This document shows positions 16,591 through 64,000 of a stretch of 64,000 nucleotides of DNA, in pieces (the stretch's first letter is position 1; every line of letters begins with the position of its first letter). The stretch comes from Prorocentrum cordatum (Eukaryota > Sar > Dinophyceae > Prorocentrales > Prorocentraceae). The notes below the pieces were generated by a model. The model worked only from the letters and a program-made list of their open reading frames with translations, was not told the DNA's origin and did no database searches. The stretch is from NCBI GenBank assembly GCA_963575745.1, contig CAUYUJ010000688.1, forward strand, positions 1-64,000. Direction: 5' to 3'. The position numbers were made by a program, and so were the translations under genes.

Positions 16591-17044
16591 CCCTGCGCTT
16601 AAGTCGGACATGTCCCCCTACAGGCAGATTTGGAAGAAAACCAACAATTCAAACATATCCAAAATTATTAAAATTCTGACAAGCTTGTCCCCAGACTGTT
16701 TCCCAACCGTCCTGTGATGTTGGGTCCTCGTTTTGACGAAACAACGCCCCGCCTTCACTCTTCCCGCTGTCCCCTCCCTCCTCCTCCCCTTCCTCCTCCT
16801 TCTCCTCGTCCTCCTCCTCACATCATCATTCTCAACGTCATCACCATCATCATCGTAGCATCATCATCAGCATCATCGTCATCATCGTCATCGTAATCGT
16901 TTTCACAATTACCATCGCCATCGCCATCATCAACGTCATCATACTCGTCATCATCGTTGTCCTCATCACCGGCATCATCGTCATCATCACCACCGTCGCC
17001 ATCATCATCGCCGTTGTCGTCACCATCATCGACACCAATTTCGG

Positions 17045-17950
17045 CACACCCCTTACCCTTTTCGTGGTCCAAGATGGAGCTCCGCCGAAAGCCCCAGCGG
17101 CAGCGCCCGCAAGCGGTTCCACCCCCATGCCAGCACACCCTTCACACGTCTCGTGGCCCCATAGGGAGCTCCACCGAAAGCCCCAACGGCAGCGCCCGCA
17201 TGCGGCTCCACCGTCCCATGTCAGCACACCCTTCACACGCTTCGTGGCCCCATACGGAGGTCCACCGAAAACCCCAGCGGCAGCGCCCGCATGCGGTTCC
17301 ACCCATGTTTCGGCACATCCATCACACGCTTCGTGGCCCCATCGAAAGCTCCACCGAAGGCCCCAACGGCAGCGCCCGCATGCGGCTCCACCCCCATTGC
17401 GGCACACCCCTCACACGCTTCGTGGCCCCATAGGGAGCTCCACCGAAGGCCCCAACGGCAGCGCCCGCATGCGGCTCCACCGTCCCATTCGGCACACCCC
17501 ATCACACGCTTCGTGGCCCCATCGAAAGCTCCACCGAAAACCACAGTGGCTGCGCTCGCATGCGGTTCCACCCCCATTTCGGCACATCCAATACACGCTT
17601 CGTGGCCCCGTAAGGGAGCTCCACCGAAGGCCCAGGCTGCAATCGCATGCGGTTCCACCCCCGTTGCGGCACACCCCTCGCACGTTACGCGGCCCCGTAA
17701 GGAGCTCTACCGAAGGCCCCAGTGGCTGCGTTCGCACGCGGTTCCACCCCCATGTCGGCACACCCCTCACACGCTTCGTGGCCCCACAGGGAGCTCCACC
17801 GAAGGCCCCAATGGCTGCTCTCGCATGCGGTTCCACCCCCATGTCGGCACACCCCTCACACGTTTTGTTGCTCCTCCACAGGGAGCTCCACCGAATGACC
17901 CAGTGGTTGCGTTCGCATGCGGTTCCACTTCATTTTCGGCACGCCGGAGG
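17045..17950 (+). repeat. 90-bp satellite array 1, about ten units
   Basis: Unit of 89-91 bases with core CGTGGCCCCATAGGGAGCTC, CACCGAAGGCCCCA and a GCATGCGGTTCCACCCCCAT tail. The unit is close to a multiple of three and lacks stops in several frames on both strands, which produces long but probably meaningless open frames. Confidence 0.9.
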
Positions 17951-44689: not shown

Positions 44690-45925
44690 CGTGACACCCC
44701 TCACGCGTTTGGTGGCCCCACAGTGAGCTCCACCCGAGGCCCCAATGACACAGTCCACATGCGCCCCCCCCGCACCATGTCGGCACACCCCTCACACGCT
44801 ACGTGGCCCCATAGGGAGCTCCACCCAAGGCCCCAATGGCACACCCCTCGCACGTTTCGTGGCCCCATACGGAGCTCCACAGAAGGCCGCAGTGGCACAG
44901 TCCACATCCGCCCCCACGCACCATCTCGGTACACCCCTCATATGTCTCGTGGCCGAATAGGGAGATCCACCGAAGGCCCCAATGGCATACTCCACATGCG
45001 CCCCCGCACCATTTCGCCACACCCCTCACGCGTTTCGTGGCCCCGTCGGGAGCTCCACCGAAGGACCCAGTGGCCCTCGCCACTTGCGCCCCACCGTACC
45101 ATTTCGGCACACCCCTCTTACGCTTCGTGGCCCCCTAGGCAGCTCCACCGAAAGCACGTTTCGTGGCCCCAAAGAGAGCTCCACCGAAAGCCCCAGTGGC
45201 AAATGCCACATGCGCCCCCCCGCACTATTTCGCCACACCACTCACTCGTTTCGTTGTCCCATTGGACGCTCAACAGAAGGCCCCAATCGCACAGTCCACA
45301 TGCGCCGCCCTCGCAACATTTCGGCACACCCCGCATACGCTTCGTGGACCCATAGGGAGCTCCACCCGAGGTCCCAGTGGCACAGGCCACATGCGCCCGC
45401 CCGCACAATTTCGGCACACCCCTCGCACGCTTTGTGGCGCCTCAAGGAGCTCCACCGAAGGCCGCAGTGGCACAGTCCACATGCGCCCCCCCGCACCATC
45501 TCGGTACACCCCTCATACATTTCGTGGCCGACTGGGGAGCTCCACCGAAGGCCCCAATGGCACACTCCACATGCGCCCCCCGGCCAAATTCTGGCACATC
45601 CCTCACTCGTTTCGTGGCCCGATCGGGAGCTCCACCGAATGCTCCAGTGAGTCCACATGGGCCTCCACGCACCACTTCTGCACCCTCCTCACACGTTTCG
45701 TGTCCCCACACGGAGCTCCACCGAATGCCCGAGTGGCACAAACCACGTGCGCCTCCCCGCACCATGGAGAAGTACACTCCGCACATGGCTCGTGGGCCTA
45801 TATGGAGCTCAACCGACGGCCACAGCTGGAGGGTCCACATGCGTCCCCCGCGCACCATGTCGGCACGCCCCTCGCACGTTTCGTGGCCCATAGGGAGCGC
45901 CACCGAAGATGACTCTCACAAGTGA
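44690..45925 (+). repeat. 90-bp satellite array 2, about thirteen units
   Basis: Units share CGTGGCCCCATAGGGAGCTC, CACCGAAGGCCCCAATGGCA, CCACATGCGCCCCC-CGCACC and TCGGCACACCCCTCACACG. It ends in the terminal unit GCGCCACCGAAGATGACTCT. One unit near 45150 is truncated. Long open frames in several frames are not taken as genes. Confidence 0.92.
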
Positions 45926-57520: not shown

Positions 57521-57844
57521 ATATGAGAACTACTCTCCCTCTTTCCCTGATGACGTCTTGGGAAATTCGCCCCCCCCCCCCCCCCCATTGTTTCACACCC
57601 CTGGAGTTGGGTTTTCGCCTGCAATTTTTTCCCAAAATGCTGCTCTCGCTGAGGCGCCGGCCTCATTTTCGGGCCCCGCTCGTTCCGAATCGTGCTCCCG
57701 CTGCAGCGTTGGCATCATTTCCGCCAGCACCTGGGCTGCACGCCCGAGCCGGCGCCCGGGCCAGCGCTCGGGCCGGGTCCGGAGCCGGTTCCGGCCGGCG
57801 CCGGAAAATCGAGTTCCGACTTGAATCGCCGCGGCGGTTCCTAA

Positions 57845-58165
57845 CCATTTAGGCATGATATAAGCATATATATCATGTATATAAGCATATTATAAGCAAC
57901 TTATAAGCAAATTATAACTGCATATCCTCGGTTATATCATCGTATCCTCGACGACGCAAGGTGCAACCATTTAGCTCTTTTAGTTACCACATAGCACACA
58001 TATAAGCATTTACTAAAGTGCTTAGGCTATCTTGCTAACTTGAATACGGAGGATATCTAAGGTGGTTACGATATTCAGCTAACCTGTTTAGCGGTTGTGA
58101 AACCTCGATTAGCTAAACTCGGAAACTCAGTTTAGCTAAACACTTTAGCTTCTTCGTAAACGCGG
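57845..58165. promoter_or_regulatory. AT-rich island with ATAAGCA repeats
   Basis: Sharp drop in GC relative to both flanks. Contains five ATAAGCA words (57857-58003), a 12-bp palindrome GTTTAGCTAAAC (58130-58141) and the inverted pair GCTAAACT/AGTTTAGC. It lies 0.5-0.85 kb upstream of the 58699 gene. A regulatory role is only a guess; it could be an unrelated repeat. Confidence 0.35.
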
Positions 58166-58639
58166 TTTCGGTGATCGCGATGTTGGGGTTCGGCATCGCA
58201 CTAAGACGAGGCGGGACATGATGAGGGCGGGGGGGGATCATGAGAAGGGGGATGCCATGGCCCCGATCTGGCCCCACGATAGTCACAAGTCGGCGTGCGG
58301 ACTTGCGATTTTCGGTTGAGGAGTAGCAGGAGGAGGAGGGGGAAAAGGGGAGGACCAACATGAGGATGAGGAGGTGGAGGACGAGGAGGAGGAGAAACAA
58401 GAGGAGGAAGAGGAGGGGCCTCTTTGGGCACTATGGGACCCAGTTGGGCTGCGGGCCTTTGTGGATCACCCTCGGGGTTACTCGTTGGCCCTCATGGCGT
58501 CTTGAGTAGTATCCAAAGCCCCCCCCCCGAGAGGGCCCCATGAGGGCTCGCAGCGATATCATCGCTCGTGGGGGGCTCTGTGCTGGATGGTGAAGGGGCC
58601 TCCCGATGCACCCCCCTAAGAAGGCCCCTGGAACCTCCT
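58166..58639. other. upstream flank of orphan gene 1
   Basis: 58325-58420 is GGA-rich. 58440-58600 is single-copy-looking, open on both strands, no motif. Confidence 0.4.
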
Positions 58640-58662
58640 TCCGTAGCCATTTAGTGCTCAAG
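58640..58662 (+). other. spliced-leader relic upstream of orphan gene 1
   Basis: Reads CCGTAGCCATTT then AGTG then CTCAAG. The dinoflagellate spliced leader, from memory, is CCGTAGCCATTTTGG followed by CTCAAG. The first twelve and last six leader bases match, with a small change and one extra base between. It ends 36 bases before the ATG at 58699, where a leader would sit in an mRNA. Confidence 0.8.
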
Positions 58663-58698
58663 CTTCGAGGTATCTCGATTATCTCACGTGCGGAATAT

Positions 58699-60601
58699 AT
58701 GGCGTCGGGCGGGTTCAAGGCGGCCTTGGAGACTGCCATCCCGTGGATCAACGGTCGGCTCGCGAGCTTCGCCGCGCAGGCTGAGTGCCAGCAGAAGAAA
58801 GCCAAGAGCGAGGAGCTGGTCAACTACTTGCTCCAACACGGGCTCGCCACCAAAGAGAGGATGAAACCCAAACATGTGGCGGCGTCGAGTCGGAACAGGT
58901 ACGGCAACGGCGTCGACCCCGTCGATGTGCACCTGTTGCTGGCCAGGATTATCGAGCAGGGCTTCGTCAAGAGCAGGCTGGACAGCCCCACTTGCTTCCA
59001 GCTGGGCCCACACGACTCGGATGAGATCAAATTCAACGTGGATATGGCGTCGAATTCAGACGGCATGCTGGCGCCTGTGTCTCGCGAAGACATACGCGCG
59101 GTGTCGGTCACGTGCACTCACACCAACTTCGGCTTGAACGCTGTCAACGCCGAGGCGCTCTGCGACATCGCCGACCTGGAGCACCTGTGCAGGGACGGCA
59201 AGCTGGCGCGCGAGAAGGTGATCGCCATCAACCCCTCGATCAAGGAATTCCTCGACGAGGGCATCGAGTGGGTGATGATTCGGAATGAGATCCTCCACGG
59301 GTGCCCTGGCCTCCCCGAGTTCCTGCAAGATGCAGGCAACTCAGGGCACCAGACGGAGCGGACCTTGACGAAGATGCAGCTCCTGATGGAGATTCACGCG
59401 AAGGGTGGTCGGAACCTCAAGAAGAAGGGCGAGTTCGACTGGCCTGGAGTGGTCGCGAACATCGAGTCGGGAAAGCCACACCTGAAGGGGCAGATCAAGG
59501 ACCTCACCAAGTTCGTCGAGAACTGGTCTGGGGGGCATGAGCAGGCGCCGCTGCTCAATGAGTTGGACATCTGGTCGAAGCTGATGAGGACCAAAGTTGA
59601 TGTCCCGAGCTCGGTGTTCAAGATCTTGGGTACCGTGGAGTTCGCGAGCGCACCCGACGTCATCATCGCGATGGTGAAGAGCGCAGTGTGCAGCCCTGAG
59701 AACTATGTGAAGAACGGCGTGTCCACCCTACTGACCAGCTGGGACGTCCAGAACCTGGTCGGCAAGAACAAGAACAAGTGCTTGGAGTTTTCTGAGATCG
59801 TCAGGAAGGCGAAGCAGTTTCTTGATGGCCTCAACGATTTGACGCCGAGCCCGAATGCCACGGACAAGAACAGGCTCATTGGCGACCTCCAGGTCCGCGG
59901 CATGATGATGCTATTGGGGAAAAAGGGTAAAGGCAGGAAGACCTACGATGATCTCAACCAGATCGTGTGCGAATTCCTCGGCGACGTCTACCTGCGCTTC
60001 CCTGGGAGCGACCAGAAGGAGGTCCCGTTCGACGTCGAGCCAGATATGCAGCAGAAGGGGCAAGCGTCGTCGGCGTCGGGGCCAGTGGGATTCAAAGTCT
60101 TCACTCGCGACGGCGACGTCTCCCAGCAGACACTCGTCCAGCACGGGCTCGTGGCCAAGGCCGTGGTCGAGCGCAAGGTGCCGCCGTTCTTCGGCGGCCC
60201 GTGGACCATCGTGAGGTTCGAGGGCTCCCGCGCCATCCTCGAGCCAGAACCTGGGGATGATGACGCCAAGAAGCGGGCGACGAGCAAGAAGGCCGACCAG
60301 CTCAAGGTGCCGACGGGCCAACTGCTGGACGAGTACCAGGTACCTCGGGCTACCTTGAGAAGCATGAGGGGATGCATGAAGATACTGAGGGGGATGGGGG
60401 AGGAGGAGGAGGAGGAGGAGGAGGAGGAGGAGGAGGAGGAGGAGGAGGAGGAGGAAGATGATGAGGAGGAGGAGGAGGGGGATGAGGAGGATAAGGATAC
60501 TGATACGAGCGAGGAAGAGGGCAGGGGGAGGATGAGGATGGGGTTGGATGATATGACGACGATTACGATGACGATGGCGACGATGATGATGCTGCTGCTG
60601 A

Positions 60602-60645
<44 letters not shown>

Positions 60646-61217
60646 TAGAGATGATGATCACGATGGTGATGTGATGCTGGTATGGTGGTGATGATGGCTG
60701 TGGCGGTGGTAATGCTGATGCTGCGGATGGCGATGGTGACTACGATGGCGCTGGTGATGCTGATGTTGCTGCTGCTGGTGATGTTGAGGATGATGATGCT
60801 GATGATGATGAGGAAGACGAGGACGACGACGCTGATGAGGATGCGGAGGATGATGCGGAAGGCGAGGAGGGGGAATCTGAGGAGGAGGAGGAGGAGGAGG
60901 AGGAGGAGGGGGAGGAGGAGGAGGAGGAGGAGGAGGAGGAGGAGGAGGAGGAGGAGAGGCGGGGGGCTGCCCTCCCCGCAGAGGTCATGAAGCGCTGGAC
61001 GCACCTCTCCGTGACGGTCGGCCCTGACGAGGCCTCCGCCCTGGAGCTTCGGGCCCTGAGCCCCTCCCTCCCTCCCTCCCACCCTCCCTCCTCCCTCTTC
61101 CCTCTCCCTCTTCCCTCTTCCCTCCCCCCTTTCCACCCTCCCTCCTCCCACCCTCCCTGCCCCCTCTTCCCTCTCCACCACCACCGCCACCACCGCCACC
61201 ACAACCACAACCACACA

Positions 61218-61252
<35 letters not shown>

Positions 61253-62020
61253 GCACCACCACCCACTACGCACGCGCGCGCGGAGCCACAAGTCCGCTAC
61301 GACACGCGTCCGCGGATAGAGAAAATCAGCGCCATGGTAAGGGGTGGGAGGGAGGGGTAGGACGTCAGATATGACGCGAGCGCACCTAGCTTGCCCGACC
61401 CCCTCGTCTACCTCCCTCGTAGCTTCTTTGGAACCCCGCCGCAGGACCACCAAGATGTCCTGACCGAGGGGTGCAAAGCATCGGTGCGGGACACGGTGAT
61501 GACCGCGTACCGCATCACGAGCCCTGCCGTGGACCTCACCATCAAGTACGCCACGTCGCCGACGGGCAAGACCGAGGTCCAGGAGGTGGCGTGCAACAGA
61601 CCATATGAGCCTGGCCAGTTGATCATCGTGCCCTTGAGCATCAATGTCGGGGCATGCTCCACAGACAAGGTCCCCGAGGGCGCCGTCATCGTGGATGGTG
61701 TCGGGGCCCCGTCGGGCACGGCCGTGTACCTCACCAAGTGCTGCCAGCTCCCCGTGGGCGACAAGAAGGCGTTCGTGGTGCCGTACTGGTGCATCCCTGA
61801 GGCCGAGGATGATGACAGTGCGCCGCTCGCTGTCGGCAAGCTGAAGCTCGACCTCGCGTGCACTCCCAACGCCCGTGGCATGGGCGGTTGCAGTCGCAAC
61901 GTGCTGATCCCCGTGCTGCACAACACGACGAAGCTGAAGAAGGGCACGGTGCTCGCACGTCCGTCTCACTGCTCGCCCGATGTGCCCCTGAGCGGCGCCA
62001 ACAAGAGGCCGCGCGAGTAG
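58699..62020 (+). CDS. orphan gene 1, three exons, about 761 residues
   Basis: Exons 58699-60339, 60984-61052 and 61445-62020. The start MASGGFKAALETAIPWINGR follows a spliced-leader relic. Exon 1 is a long clean frame with high G/C at third positions, unlike nearby microsatellite frames. The protein is mixed-charge, with ARIIEQGFVKSRLDSPTCFQ near residue 90, WVMIRNEILHG near 190, a basic LGKKGKGRKTYDD near 405, and a Cys-rich C-terminal exon (KASVRD, CNRPYEPG, LTKCCQLP, YWCIPEAEDD, GGCSRN) ending KRPRE. Intron 1 is GT-AG and consists of GGA/GAT repeats; the second appears GC-AG. No known domain, signal peptide or membrane segment is recognised. The exon 2/3 junction is the least certain. It reads in the same direction as orphan gene 2. 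Confidence 0.8.
60340..60983 (+). repeat. intron 1 of orphan gene 1, microsatellite-filled
   Basis: GT donor after GAGTACCAG and AG acceptor before GTCATGAAG, which joins EYQ to VMKRWTHL in frame. The interior is (GGA)n, (GAT)n, (GAC)n and (GGA)n again. Reading through would add polyglutamate. Confidence 0.75.
61053..61444 (+). repeat. intron 2 of orphan gene 1, CCT/CCA/ACGC repeats
   Basis: Probable GC donor (CGG|GCCC) and CAG acceptor before GACCACCAAG. Contains CCCTCC, (CCACCG)n and (ACGC)n at 61216-61252, then a short single-copy stretch. Confidence 0.6.
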
Positions 62021-62059
62021 GTGCTCGACGTTGTCGAGTCGCCCGAGAGAGGATGGGAA

Positions 62060-62103
62060 TGGACGATGATGACGATAACGATGACGATGACGATGACAAT
62101 GAC

Positions 62104-62152
<49 letters not shown>

Positions 62153-62215
62153 ATGATGATGATTATGCTGTTGATGATGATGATGGTGATGATGATGATG
62201 ATGATGATCAGCGCA
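62060..62215. repeat. GAT microsatellite
   Basis: (GAC/GAT)n directly downstream of the stop of orphan gene 1; may be in its 3' UTR. Confidence 0.95.
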
Positions 62216-62700
62216 AGCGCATTAACTCGGCATGGCATTCCCATCCCCACGCGGGCTCCAGCAGCGACGCCCTCTCTGCGGGGCTCGCTGCTTTCCGCTG
62301 CAGGCGCGAGGCATCTCGCTCTGCCCTTGGCGCCCGCGGCGAAGGCGCTGGCAGCCAACGTTGTTGCTGGGCGGAGGGCGCCCGTGCTGCCAGCGCACTA
62401 GCTCTCGCAGAAATCCTCGCCGTTCATCTCCTCCTCCTCCTCCTTCTCCTCCTCCTCATCCCCCTCCTCCTCCAGTCAGGGCCGCGACGTCCAGTGGGAG
62501 GGGGGCGAAGCCGTCGGCCCACCTTGTGCAGGGCGCGTGATGGCGCAGATGTCGAGGCAAATCCAGCTGCGGCATGGCCCTCCCGACCCCTCCCGAAAGA
62601 TGGCTTTTTTCATTGAGTTCCGGCTAACTTTGGAGTTCGGGGCGGGGGGGCCAGAGGAGGCTGGAGGTCGGATGGAGGGCGCACAAGGACCAACGCAGAA
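62216..62700. other. intergenic, no gene seen
   Basis: 62430-62475 is CTC-rich. No recognisable exon on either strand. Confidence 0.4.
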
Positions 62701-62709
62701 GGTCACAGC

Positions 62710-62945
62710 CAGACAATACGGCATGGCATAGCGCAGCATTGCATAACATTTGCAAAACAAAAGCGAGGTCCGAATCAACAAACAATACGCCACAACACGA
62801 ACCAGACAGTGCGCAATTGCATAGCTTAGCATAGCATGGTGGCGAACGCCATAGCATTGCATAGCATAGCGCATCGCAGGTCACGTCGGAAATCAACGTA
62901 AACAGAACAACGGCGCATGCCATAGCATAGCATAGCATAACAAAG
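62710..62945. repeat. degenerate CATAGCATAGC pentanucleotide repeats
   Basis: Clusters of GCATAGC/CATAGCATAGC at 62722-62750, 62818-62840, 62850-62875 and 62920-62942. They lie just upstream of the spliced-leader relic of orphan gene 2. Confidence 0.85.
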
Positions 62946-62955
62946 CCTCCACCAT

Positions 62956-62977
62956 CGCATAGACATTTAGGCTCAAG
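62956..62977 (+). other. spliced-leader relic upstream of orphan gene 2
   Basis: Reads CGCATAGACATTTAGG then CTCAAG. From TAG onward 16 of 18 bases match the spliced leader, and the distance to the ATG at 63032 is 54 bases. It shares the CATTTAG variant with the relic at 58640. Confidence 0.7.
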
Positions 62978-63031
62978 CCGCTTGGCGAGTTTTGGCGTGT
63001 ATTTGTATCTAACCTCCCAGTGCTACTCATC

Positions 63032-63816
63032 ATGCCCTTGACCGTTCAGGAGGGCTATGTGCTCATCGGAGATGCCGAGGACCCCCAGCCCGCCAACTCG
63101 TGGGTTACGCGCGTGCACGAGGCTGATGGTAAGAAATGGATTTCCTGCGACCGTTCGAACGCAGCCTTCAAGAGGCTGCTGGACAACAATTTCGAGATGC
63201 TTGAGCTCTGCCAGAGACGCCGCCTGGAGACCACAGAACAAATGATGGATGAGGCCGAAGCAAAGGCCGCTCGCGAGGGCGACCACCTGGCAGATCATGC
63301 TCCCGATTCCCAATGTGCGAAGAGGGCCAAGAAGGAAAGGATCGATGGAATCGCAGGCGCCCTGGTCTGAACGTGGGCCACACCTCCCAGCCCAATCAGC
63401 ACCCCCTTCAGCGCCTGCGATTTCATCGGCGTTTCCTTCTTTCAGGGTTCTGCTCTATCAAGGTCCAGGACGCCCTGGGCCAGGACCACTGCATGACTGT
63501 GCAGACCTCCGCCTACCTACGCTCGAAACTATCGGTCGAACTGAAGGCCGAACACATCCAGGTGCTGAGGAAGACCCCGAGCCATGAAACTGTTCGCGAC
63601 CCAGGGTTCGTTCCAGTGATTCGAGAGAAAAACGTCACCTACTTGCCGTACAGGTGTTCCCTCAAGACCACCTGGATCGATCCGCTGAGTGGGACCCCCA
63701 GGACGAAAACCCAGTGCATCAGGGCCCCGACCAACGAGCAGATGCAGGAGAAGGCAGACAAGGTCGCGCCAGTGCTCCAAGCTCACTACAACAGCCACAA
63801 TGTGCAGGACCTCTAG
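63032..63816 (+). CDS. orphan gene 2, two exons, 231 residues
   Basis: Exons 63032-63356 and 63446-63816. It starts MPLTVQEGYVLIGDAEDPQP after a spliced-leader relic. Segment NAAFKRLLDNNFEMLELCQR is followed by a charged helix-like stretch (TEQMMDEAEAKAAREG) and a basic patch AKRAKKER near residue 95, which could be nuclear-targeting. After the intron come VQDALGQDHCMTVQTSAYLR, ELKAEHIQVLRKTP, REKNVTYLPYRCSLKTTWID and a lysine-rich end. The intron is GC-AG and 89 bases, and phases match exactly (IAG joined to FCSIKV). Codon use is G/C-ending, as in orphan gene 1. No known domain is recognised. It is in the same orientation, 1 kb downstream of orphan gene 1, so the two may be expressed from one long transcript resolved by trans-splicing. 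Confidence 0.82.
63357..63445 (+). other. GC-AG intron of orphan gene 2, with stem-forming ends
   Basis: Starts GCGCCCTGG, ends TTCTTTCAG. Bases 63344-63360 (GATGGAATCGCAGGCGC, spanning the donor) pair with 63411-63427 (GCGCCTGCGATTTCATC), one mismatch. Confidence 0.85.
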
Positions 63817-63965
63817 TGAACGCACGTGCGGACTCATGTGTACATATCGCCCCTCGGCTGCGCCAGTGTGCAATTTTGTTGTTCGATATAGTAGCACGTG
63901 CCGCTGCACGCGCATGTGGGAAGGGGTATGCACGCATACTCCTTAGCGCTCCGCTCGGCCTCACC

Positions 63966-63984
63966 TAGATATGATGTGCTCAAG
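63966..63984 (+). other. weak third spliced-leader-like sequence
   Basis: TAGATATGATGTGCTCAAG matches the 58640 relic at 14 of 19 positions, including the GTGCTCAAG end. It is 150 bases past the stop of orphan gene 2. It could mark the next gene, which would lie outside the window. Confidence 0.35.
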
Positions 63985-64000
63985 CTTGGCAAGACATCCG

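Follow-up and report, generated by a model that had tools for sequence, protein, structure and literature searches.

Spliced-leader relics directly upstream of the genes of a DNA transposon in the dinoflagellate Prorocentrum cordatum

The last part of the window, the stretch of 64,000 nucleotides of contig CAUYUJ010000688.1 (C688) analysed here, is occupied from position 57820 to 64000 on the forward strand by a 13,718-bp terminal-inverted-repeat DNA transposon, which spans C688:57820-71537 and contains both genes that were noted initially. Its left terminal inverted repeat, the 13-bp CTTGAATCGCCGC at 57820-57832 (+ strand), matches the reverse-complemented right end in 13 of 13 bases; the right repeat ends beyond the window at C688:71537 and is common to copy B, and the left end is identical in all four compared copies of the element. 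A 25-mer at this left end has 195 matches in the genome (at most 3 mismatches) vs none for the reversed control. Target duplications of 2 bp (GA/GA in C688, TT/TT in copy B, CA/CA in the relative E) are found in three of the four copies with both ends readable, the flanks of copy A being mismatched (TA/GA), and the right side of copy C consists of N. With four different left flanks among its copies, the element thus has the inverted ends, the target duplication and the occurrence at unrelated sites that define such a transposon, and a host gene cluster was rejected, as the genes sit in mobile DNA that moved as a block. Two further copies with the exact left end, C14596 and C114, were excluded, since the small windows aligned (approximately 65-72%) missed the gene starts. 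In the more distant relatives D and F, no convincing inverted repeats were found in the stretches searched, that of F including 2,459 N.

The element holds four genes, all on one strand; the last two, genes 3 and 4, lie to the right of the window. Gene 1 consists of a first coding block of 546 amino acids (58699-60338, + strand; dN/dS 0.25 vs E), with homologues in D and F, and a second one of 191 amino acids (61445-62017, + strand; dN/dS 0.32 vs E), presumably separated by one or more introns; it forms two separate blocks in E, D and F as well, with the exact place of the interruption not resolved in D and F. Gene 2 (63032-63816, + strand) has blocks at 63032-63367 (dN/dS 0.38 vs E) and 63445-63816, between which a 77-bp intron is predicted; E and F have the interruption at the corresponding site, whereas gene 2 of D, which carries a fresh leader relic, has none and could represent the ancestral state. 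Gene 3 lies at 65496-67193 and gene 4 at 68030-70030 (both + strand). Gene 4 is uninterrupted in E, D and, apart from an in-frame TGA at 69512-69514, C688, and is interrupted in F; an 'intron' at 69512 was rejected, because E, D and F read through where C688 has the in-frame TGA. Across six of the seven coding blocks, dN/dS vs E is 0.11-0.46.

The product of gene 4 is probably a DDE-type transposase, with a possible D118-D218-E491 triad. Pfam gave no match for the seven translated blocks of the element, the first block of gene 1 and gene 4 included, nothing above the cut-off for four homologues and nothing for ten long open reading frames elsewhere in the window. A PDB sequence search with the first block of gene 4 was empty, and the first blocks of genes 1 and 4, the two sequences sent to viral_contigs, had no relative there. 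Large DNA transposons of the CACTA/EnSpm type carry terminal inverted repeats, repeats near their ends and several genes, and are defined by CACTA termini, a 2-3 bp duplication and a Tnp2-type transposase. The present element resembles them in its inverted ends, its TAAACACTTTAGC repeats near both ends, its several genes and the possible triad in gene 4. However, its termini read CTTGAATC, its duplications are of 2 bp and gene 4 lacks a Pfam match, and on account of the termini and gene 4 I do not assign it to that superfamily.

Each of the four genes has a leader or truncated leader directly upstream of its coding sequence. Relic 1, TCCGTAGCCATTTAGTGCTCAAG (58640-58662, + strand), reaches a local score of 18 out of a possible 22 and is separated by 36 bases from the ATG at 58699; relic 2, GCATAGACATTTAGGCTCAAG (62957-62977, + strand), scores 14 over 62960-62977, with 54 bases between it and the ATG at 63032. 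When the 110 bases of either region were dinucleotide-shuffled 400 times, or the leader was permuted 200 times, the score was never reached, so that the initial annotation, which had recognized these two as leader relics, is confirmed, the start of relic 2 now being set at 62957. The third match that it had proposed (63966-63984, + strand) scores 8, which 45 of 500 shuffles and 36 of the 580 tiles of the window equal or exceed, and was rejected as chance-level; in the 700 bases following it only two open reading frames longer than 80 amino acids start, both repetitive. The gene that was expected to the right of position 64000 does exist, in the form of gene 3 (ATG at 65496), and the real next relic, relic 3 (C688:65423-65446, + strand, score 13), precedes it, as relic 4 (C688:67997-68019, + strand, score 16) precedes the ATG of gene 4 at 68030. 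The + strand of the element has exactly four leader-like sites scoring at least 11, each directly before a gene, and the - strand none. In 248,660 strand-bases of other DNA from these contigs, one site scores at least 13. Genome-wide, CCGTAGCCATTTNGNGCTCAAG (at most 2 mismatches) has 646 matches vs 5 for the reversed pattern.

In a DinoSL RNA gene, the leader is followed directly by a GT donor and the snRNA body. The relics share the leader sequence with these genes, but the two bases after them are CT (relic 1), CC (relic 2) and CA (relic 4), and only relic 3 happens to have a GT in this place; SL RNA genes were therefore rejected, and an Rfam search of the window at the gathering threshold was empty.

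The exact sequence of relic 1 occurs at four places in the genome, which have the flanks and one sharp left end in common; these copies were therefore made at the DNA level, through transposition or duplication, and do not stand for four separate recyclings. Relic 1 is identical in copies A, B and C and unchanged between close copies. At relic 2, copy B reads GCATAGCCATCAAGGCTCAAG and copy H ends in TAGCCATGAAGGCTCAAG, the cores in close copies being TTTAGG, TCAAGG and TGAAGG. As relics 1 and 2 are also unlike in length and core, the CATTTAG that they share does not point to one ancestral event, as had been considered. In copy B, relics differ from C688 at 7 of 91 positions vs 33 of 1806 in the flanks (p = 0.002), and in copy H at 5 of 88 vs 27 of 1728 (p = 0.017), two tests that are not independent, as both are set against C688, and that include relic 1, without which the relic counts are 7/68 (B) and 5/68 (H). 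Since relics change faster than their surroundings in close copies, an old relic would not be expected to stay leader-like. Over the longer distance between E and C688, differences amount to 20/89 in the relics, 30/136 in the 5' leader and 138/353 in upstream DNA, and the lower divergence of relic and 5' leader would be compatible with some constraint.

Three relatives at other places in the genome, E, D and F, keep the order of the four genes of C688, even though the D and F proteins are only about 28-51% identical to those of C688. With two further loci, L066 and L077, leader-like sequence is present before 18 of 19 gene starts, gene 3 of D being the exception (p = 0.08); for the 11 starts neither found through a relic nor named in the initial annotation, the combined Fisher p against dinucleotide shuffles is about 5e-15. 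In the diverged lineages, relics scoring 17-19 precede D gene 2, F gene X and F gene 4, but all fresh D and F relics, like L066 and L077, were found by relic search, and gene X by scanning F, whereas in D and F the gene starts not selected in this way reach no more than 8-11. Scores also vary within one element (10, 17, 8 and 10 in D; 12, 10, 16 and 20 in E). Of 18 relics, 4 have remnants of an earlier relic behind them at p < 0.05, namely those of C688 gene 3, D gene 3, F gene X and L066 (CCATTTTGGCT, p = 0.001 for the last); the other 14 are not significant, and over all 18 relics the Fisher p is 0.003. Such remnants are what repeated trans-splicing and recycling predict. Two other loci in the genome, L043 and L050, align from the first base of the relic on, as expected of recycled copies.

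I lean, with some reserve, towards the explanation that leader-bearing mRNA re-entered this transposon family repeatedly while the element itself spreads as DNA. Trans-splicing would give the leader to the mRNAs of the transposon genes, these mRNAs would be reverse-transcribed, and the cDNA would re-enter copies of the transposon repeatedly in the history of the family, probably in place and by homology, because gene order is conserved. Each relic would decay after its entry, and an AG that remains or arises in it could accept the next leader, while the element would move as DNA through the product of gene 4. The initial proposal that the genes re-entered the genome from trans-spliced mRNA thus remains the best account of the relics, but what was taken for a cluster of genes is a mobile DNA transposon. 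A stronger form, in which the family routinely renews its genes from its own trans-spliced mRNAs, with cDNA from a host or retroelement reverse transcriptase replacing genes in place, is a tentative idea that I consider rather doubtful. The missing interruption of D gene 2, together with its fresh relic, speaks for re-entry of mRNA in general; against it count the two blocks of gene 1 in all four lineages and the interruption of F gene 4 despite its fresh relic, although intron retention is reported for dinoflagellate retrogenes (PMC6050394). If renewal were true, the element would be DNA-mobile yet partly RNA-copied, and each renewal would write a dated leader tag.

Alternatively, a single ancestral recycling may have tagged each gene, after which selection retained the leader copy as a trans-splice acceptor or as a promoter motif, the latter along the lines of the TTT(G) idea in PMC6050394. 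This would fit the comparable position of leader-like sequence in all lineages, the reduced divergence of relic and 5' leader between E and C688, and the recurrence of AG in the core at 7 of 19 gene starts, but it is somewhat unlikely, as the relics of close copies change faster than their flanks, single elements (D, E) mix fresh and badly decayed relics, and, judged by eye, the TTTT core to which the promoter role is ascribed is frequently altered in this family while GGCTCAAG is often kept. Simple decay since a single assembly of the transposon from four retrocopies would account for relics on all genes in a fixed order, for the GTG that E and C688 both have in relic 1, and for the weak unselected relics of D and F. 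However, with 22% difference between the E and C688 relics at a dS of about 0.45, such decay should have erased the relics, and even a few relics as fresh as those of the strongly diverged D and F would be unexpected, though these were found because they are fresh; I regard this history as improbable. Least credible of all, to the point of being very improbable, is that selection for resemblance to the leader shaped these sequences from existing DNA without any passage through RNA: their uniform position and orientation would agree with it, but full-length matches including CCGTAG, together with the second-relic remnants, fit trans-splicing followed by reverse transcription, and recycling does take place in the same genome, as L043 and L050 demonstrate.

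It had been suggested that an internal AG acceptor may be under selection, and within the transposon family this is suggestive: AG occurs in 7 of 13 altered relic cores (p 0.001-0.004), and in 5 of 11 (p 0.02-0.04) without the two relics named initially. A genome-wide trend is not seen, the first 100 listed of 623 relics altered at that T having 2 A, 35 C and 63 G; the scarcity of A at this T, the one position counted, may be mutational. If trans-splicing occurred at the AG inside a relic, the mRNA would consist of a new leader followed by the remainder of the relic, CCATTTAG... or GCTCAAG...

Slamovits and Keeling reportedly described, in 2008, dinoflagellate retrogenes marked by DinoSL relics. 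Excerpts of Haro 2025 (PMC12014239) likewise describe such retrogenes, and it is already known that dinoflagellate DNA takes up recycled leader-bearing mRNA; the type of retroelement mediating it is given as not known in the part of PMC6050394 available. The present genes resemble the retrogenes of these partial accounts in having a genomic leader copy directly upstream of the coding sequence and sometimes second-relic remnants, but differ from them in that retrogenes are reported there for single genes, whereas here all genes of a transposon have relics, which recur across diverged lineages in a fixed order. No copy away from its parent was found, since C688, E, D and F all have the same gene order; single genes are therefore not filed as ordinary dispersed retrogenes, and any re-entry would have had to occur in place, which is unusual. 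I found no description of leader relics on DNA-transposon genes in the portions of the literature available (including PMC10666404, PMC9399869, PMC7245778, PMC11453091, PMC12014239 and PMC6050394). The target of recycling would here be a mobile element whose gene order is fixed, whose ends are known and of which many copies exist, so that the replacement of genes by cDNA in place, its frequency and the choice of the AG for the next leader become accessible questions. Moreover, some of the leader relics that are scored as host retrogenes can in fact mark genes of transposons; in a non-random sample, 5 of 48 other relic sites belong to the transposon family.

Scored over both strands of the whole window, the 22-base dinoflagellate spliced leader (possible score 22) has its two best matches at the two relics, or genomic leader copies, proposed in the initial annotation (58640-58662 and 62956-62977), with scores of 18 and 14 and the next at 12; for each relic, none of 400 shuffles and none of 200 permuted leaders scored as high. 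A third relic proposed there, at 63966-63984, matches the leader only at chance level. The G+C content of the window is 54 to 66% (2-kb tiles). In the assembly (4,128,499,153 bases in 21,875 contigs), where the window is C688:1-64000 (C688 is contig CAUYUJ010000688.1), leader copies are common: a one-base-longer leader pattern with at most 2 mismatches occurs at 646 places, versus 5 for its reverse, and 623 full-length copies are changed at the fourth T, versus 0. The most frequent form in the list of genomic relic loci (e.g. L036-L055) is a 5-T form, CCGTAGCCATTTTTGGCTCAAG, whose source may be a variant SL RNA gene. The relic variants TTTGTGG and TTTGTAG are also seen within multi-copy DNA (L030/L031 and L028/L029; 98% and 85% identity).

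The block that bears relic 1 is a transposon with terminal inverted repeats, C688:57820-71537. The exact relic-1 sequence is present at four genomic places, C688 and the close copies A (C15611), B (C5224) and C (C13955), which have about 820 bp upstream in common, an abrupt left edge at 57820 and four distinct flanks. The right end of copy B is the same inverted complement of the left edge as in C688 (CTTGAATCGCCGC...GCGGCGATTCAAG), and the element measures 13,718 bp in C688 and 12,800 bp in copy B, with matching 2-bp target duplications of GA in C688, TT in copy B and CA in a diverged relative, E. The left-end 25-mer has 195 genomic matches with at most 3 mismatches (9 exact), versus 0 for the reversed control. 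The dinucleotides flanking copy A differ (TA left, GA right), and this copy is 99.8% identical to C688 over 50 kb, from the element to about C688:109,199, a near-identity beyond the element which implies that the C688 or the C15611 contig is misjoined or recombined. The right side of copy C is N. By eye, alike repeat DNA (...GCTCTCGCTGAGGCGCCGGCCTCATTTTCGGG...) flanks the element at 57601-57819 and from C688:71538 onward, so that the insertion was probably into a repeat. At G000:C5625:97265-97464 left-end repeats face inward with about 200 bp between them, and the family may here have given rise to a short non-autonomous element. Elsewhere in the window, a repeat of about 90 bp (GGCACACCCCTCACACG...) forms two arrays, at 17041-17928 and 44694-45908.

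All four genes of the C688 element carry a relic. Exactly four sites on its plus strand score at least 11, at 58640 (18), 62960 (14), 65423 (13) and 67997 (16), and these lie 36, 54, 49 and 10 bases ahead of the ATGs of genes 1 to 4, which start on the plus strand at 58699, 63032, 65496 and 68030, the latter two past the window. No site on the minus strand of the element reaches 11, and a single site reaches 13 in the 248,660 strand-bases of other DNA of these contigs. A Pfam search gave no match for any of genes 1-4. The product of gene 4 is a possible DDE transposase, as residues D118, D218 and E491 (C688 numbering) and several C and H are kept in C688 and in the relatives E, D and F. Gene 4 of C688 has an in-frame TGA at 69512-69514, absent there from E, D and F, so the whole protein is maybe no longer made by this copy; in copy B the later part of this gene contains a single stop.

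The relatives came from relics. Besides the four copies I examined 48 relic loci from the 646-place search (5 + 8 + 20 + 15), a non-random sample picked chiefly because they had the 5-T form or a variant that was unusual or repeated, and five of them precede transposon-gene homologues (L033, gene 2; L035 and L041, gene 4; L066, gene 1; L077, gene 3). Once extended, three of these five loci gave elements E (C858; complete, 13,827 bp; 63-89% protein identity), D (C1559; 28-42%) and F (C1; 30-51%), all three of which keep the order of the four genes; F has an additional 160-aa open reading frame between genes 2 and 3, gene X, spotted via its relic. Leader scores upstream of genes 1 to 4 are 12, 10, 16 and 20 in E, 10, 17, 8 and 10 in D, and 10, 11, 11 and 19 in F, with 18 for gene X, 18 for L066 and 17 for L077. 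Omitting the starts found through relics (E gene 4, D gene 2, F gene 4, gene X, L066, L077) and genes 1 and 2 of C688, which the initial annotation had supplied, leaves 11 starts; their scores are reached by 0 to 21 of 1000 dinucleotide shuffles, except D gene 3 (79 of 1000), and the combined p for leader-like sequence before these starts is 5e-15. Some of the ATGs in the family were set from protein alignment. Between C688 and E, which has no stops, dN/dS is 0.11-0.46 in six of seven coding blocks (dS 0.39-0.64), values that show purifying selection to have acted on the family; between C688 and copy B it is 0.38 to 1.32 (six blocks with synonymous change, the changes being few), and recent copies may be under weaker constraint.

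Relics before every gene could be held in place by constraint or be renewed. Between C688 and E, 20 of 89 relic bases differ, versus 30/136 from relic to ATG and 138/353 in upstream DNA, so that relic and 5' leader have some protection relative to upstream DNA, the relic not more than the remaining 5' leader. When close copies are compared, it is the relics that change fast: 7/91 bases changed versus 33/1806 in the surroundings for copy B (p = 0.002), and 5/88 versus 27/1728 for copy H on C20321 (p = 0.017), two comparisons that are non-independent, C688 being the reference for both. The changes are in relics 2, 3 and, in H, 4, and none in relic 1, the first bases of which are deleted in H. 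Leader-likeness as such is therefore weakly held, and near-perfect relics in lineages as distant as D, F and C688, those of D and F having come from relic searching, point to later arrivals. Some relics are followed by the remnant of another, which is moderate evidence of repeated passage: L066 has CCATTTTGGCT (p = 0.001), D gene 3 another (0.015), F gene X GCTCAAG (0.02) and C688 gene 3 a fourth (0.042); singly 14 of 18 are non-significant, and all 18 jointly give p = 0.003.

Interruptions of the genes bear on renewal in both directions. That of gene 2 is at the same place in C688, E and F and absent from D, whose gene 2 relic is fresh (near-perfect); this fits passage via spliced mRNA, but could equally be the ancestral state. 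Against renewal, gene 1 is split into two blocks in all of C688, E, D and F, and F gene 4 is interrupted where the others are not, although its relic is fresh; retrogenes with retained introns are, on the other hand, reported (PMC6050394, section 7). Direct support exists for the element, its relics, their family-wide recurrence, the fast change between close copies and some second-relic remnants, and renewal would most likely proceed as follows: transposon transcripts would be trans-spliced as other mRNAs are, a retroelement enzyme would reverse-transcribe the leader-bearing mRNA, and the cDNA would enter transposon copies in place by homology, with a leader copy left behind at the 5' edge, after which the element would multiply as DNA through its putative transposase. 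Leader relics and mRNA recycling are already established (PMC12014239, PMC6050394, PMC7245778); a search of open-licence papers gave no report of relics on DNA-transposon genes.

The initial annotation noted a CATTTAG variant shared by relics 1 and 2, and selection for an internal AG acceptor was one of the two meanings that it suggested. An AG directly before GCTCAAG or its equivalent is present in the core, the T-run region, at 7 of 19 gene starts; 13 cores are altered, and random substitution would give 2.0-2.4 AGs (p 0.001-0.004), or, without the two relics that gave the idea, 5 of 11 altered cores have it (p 0.02-0.04), with cores hand-coded and D gene 3 weakly aligned. Relic 2 has three different cores in three close copies, each keeping the AG. 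The pattern is suggestive within the transposon family (7/13 altered cores). Across the genome the simplest change of this kind is rare: the first 100 listed of the 623 fourth-T changes are 2 A, 35 C and 63 G, a tally by eye at this one leader position with repeat families counted without collapsing. An internal acceptor may hence matter for the transposon, with no general trend seen.

Elsewhere in the genome, L043 (C1625) and L050 (C3283) are copies of one gene, 97.6% identical over 701 bases that begin exactly where the relic begins, and the DNA ahead of the relic differs, a boundary as expected of recycled cDNA. The relic-led genes at L037, L043, L050, L051, L055 and L076 seem by eye to include several of a single family (LHGxLxRR...NxxRHxT), which may represent the first open reading frame of a retroelement with the spliced leader as its 5' end. 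Behind the full-length relic L006 (C13632), an open reading frame encodes FDIRQFYQRIDHDIL, similar by eye to a reverse-transcriptase motif.
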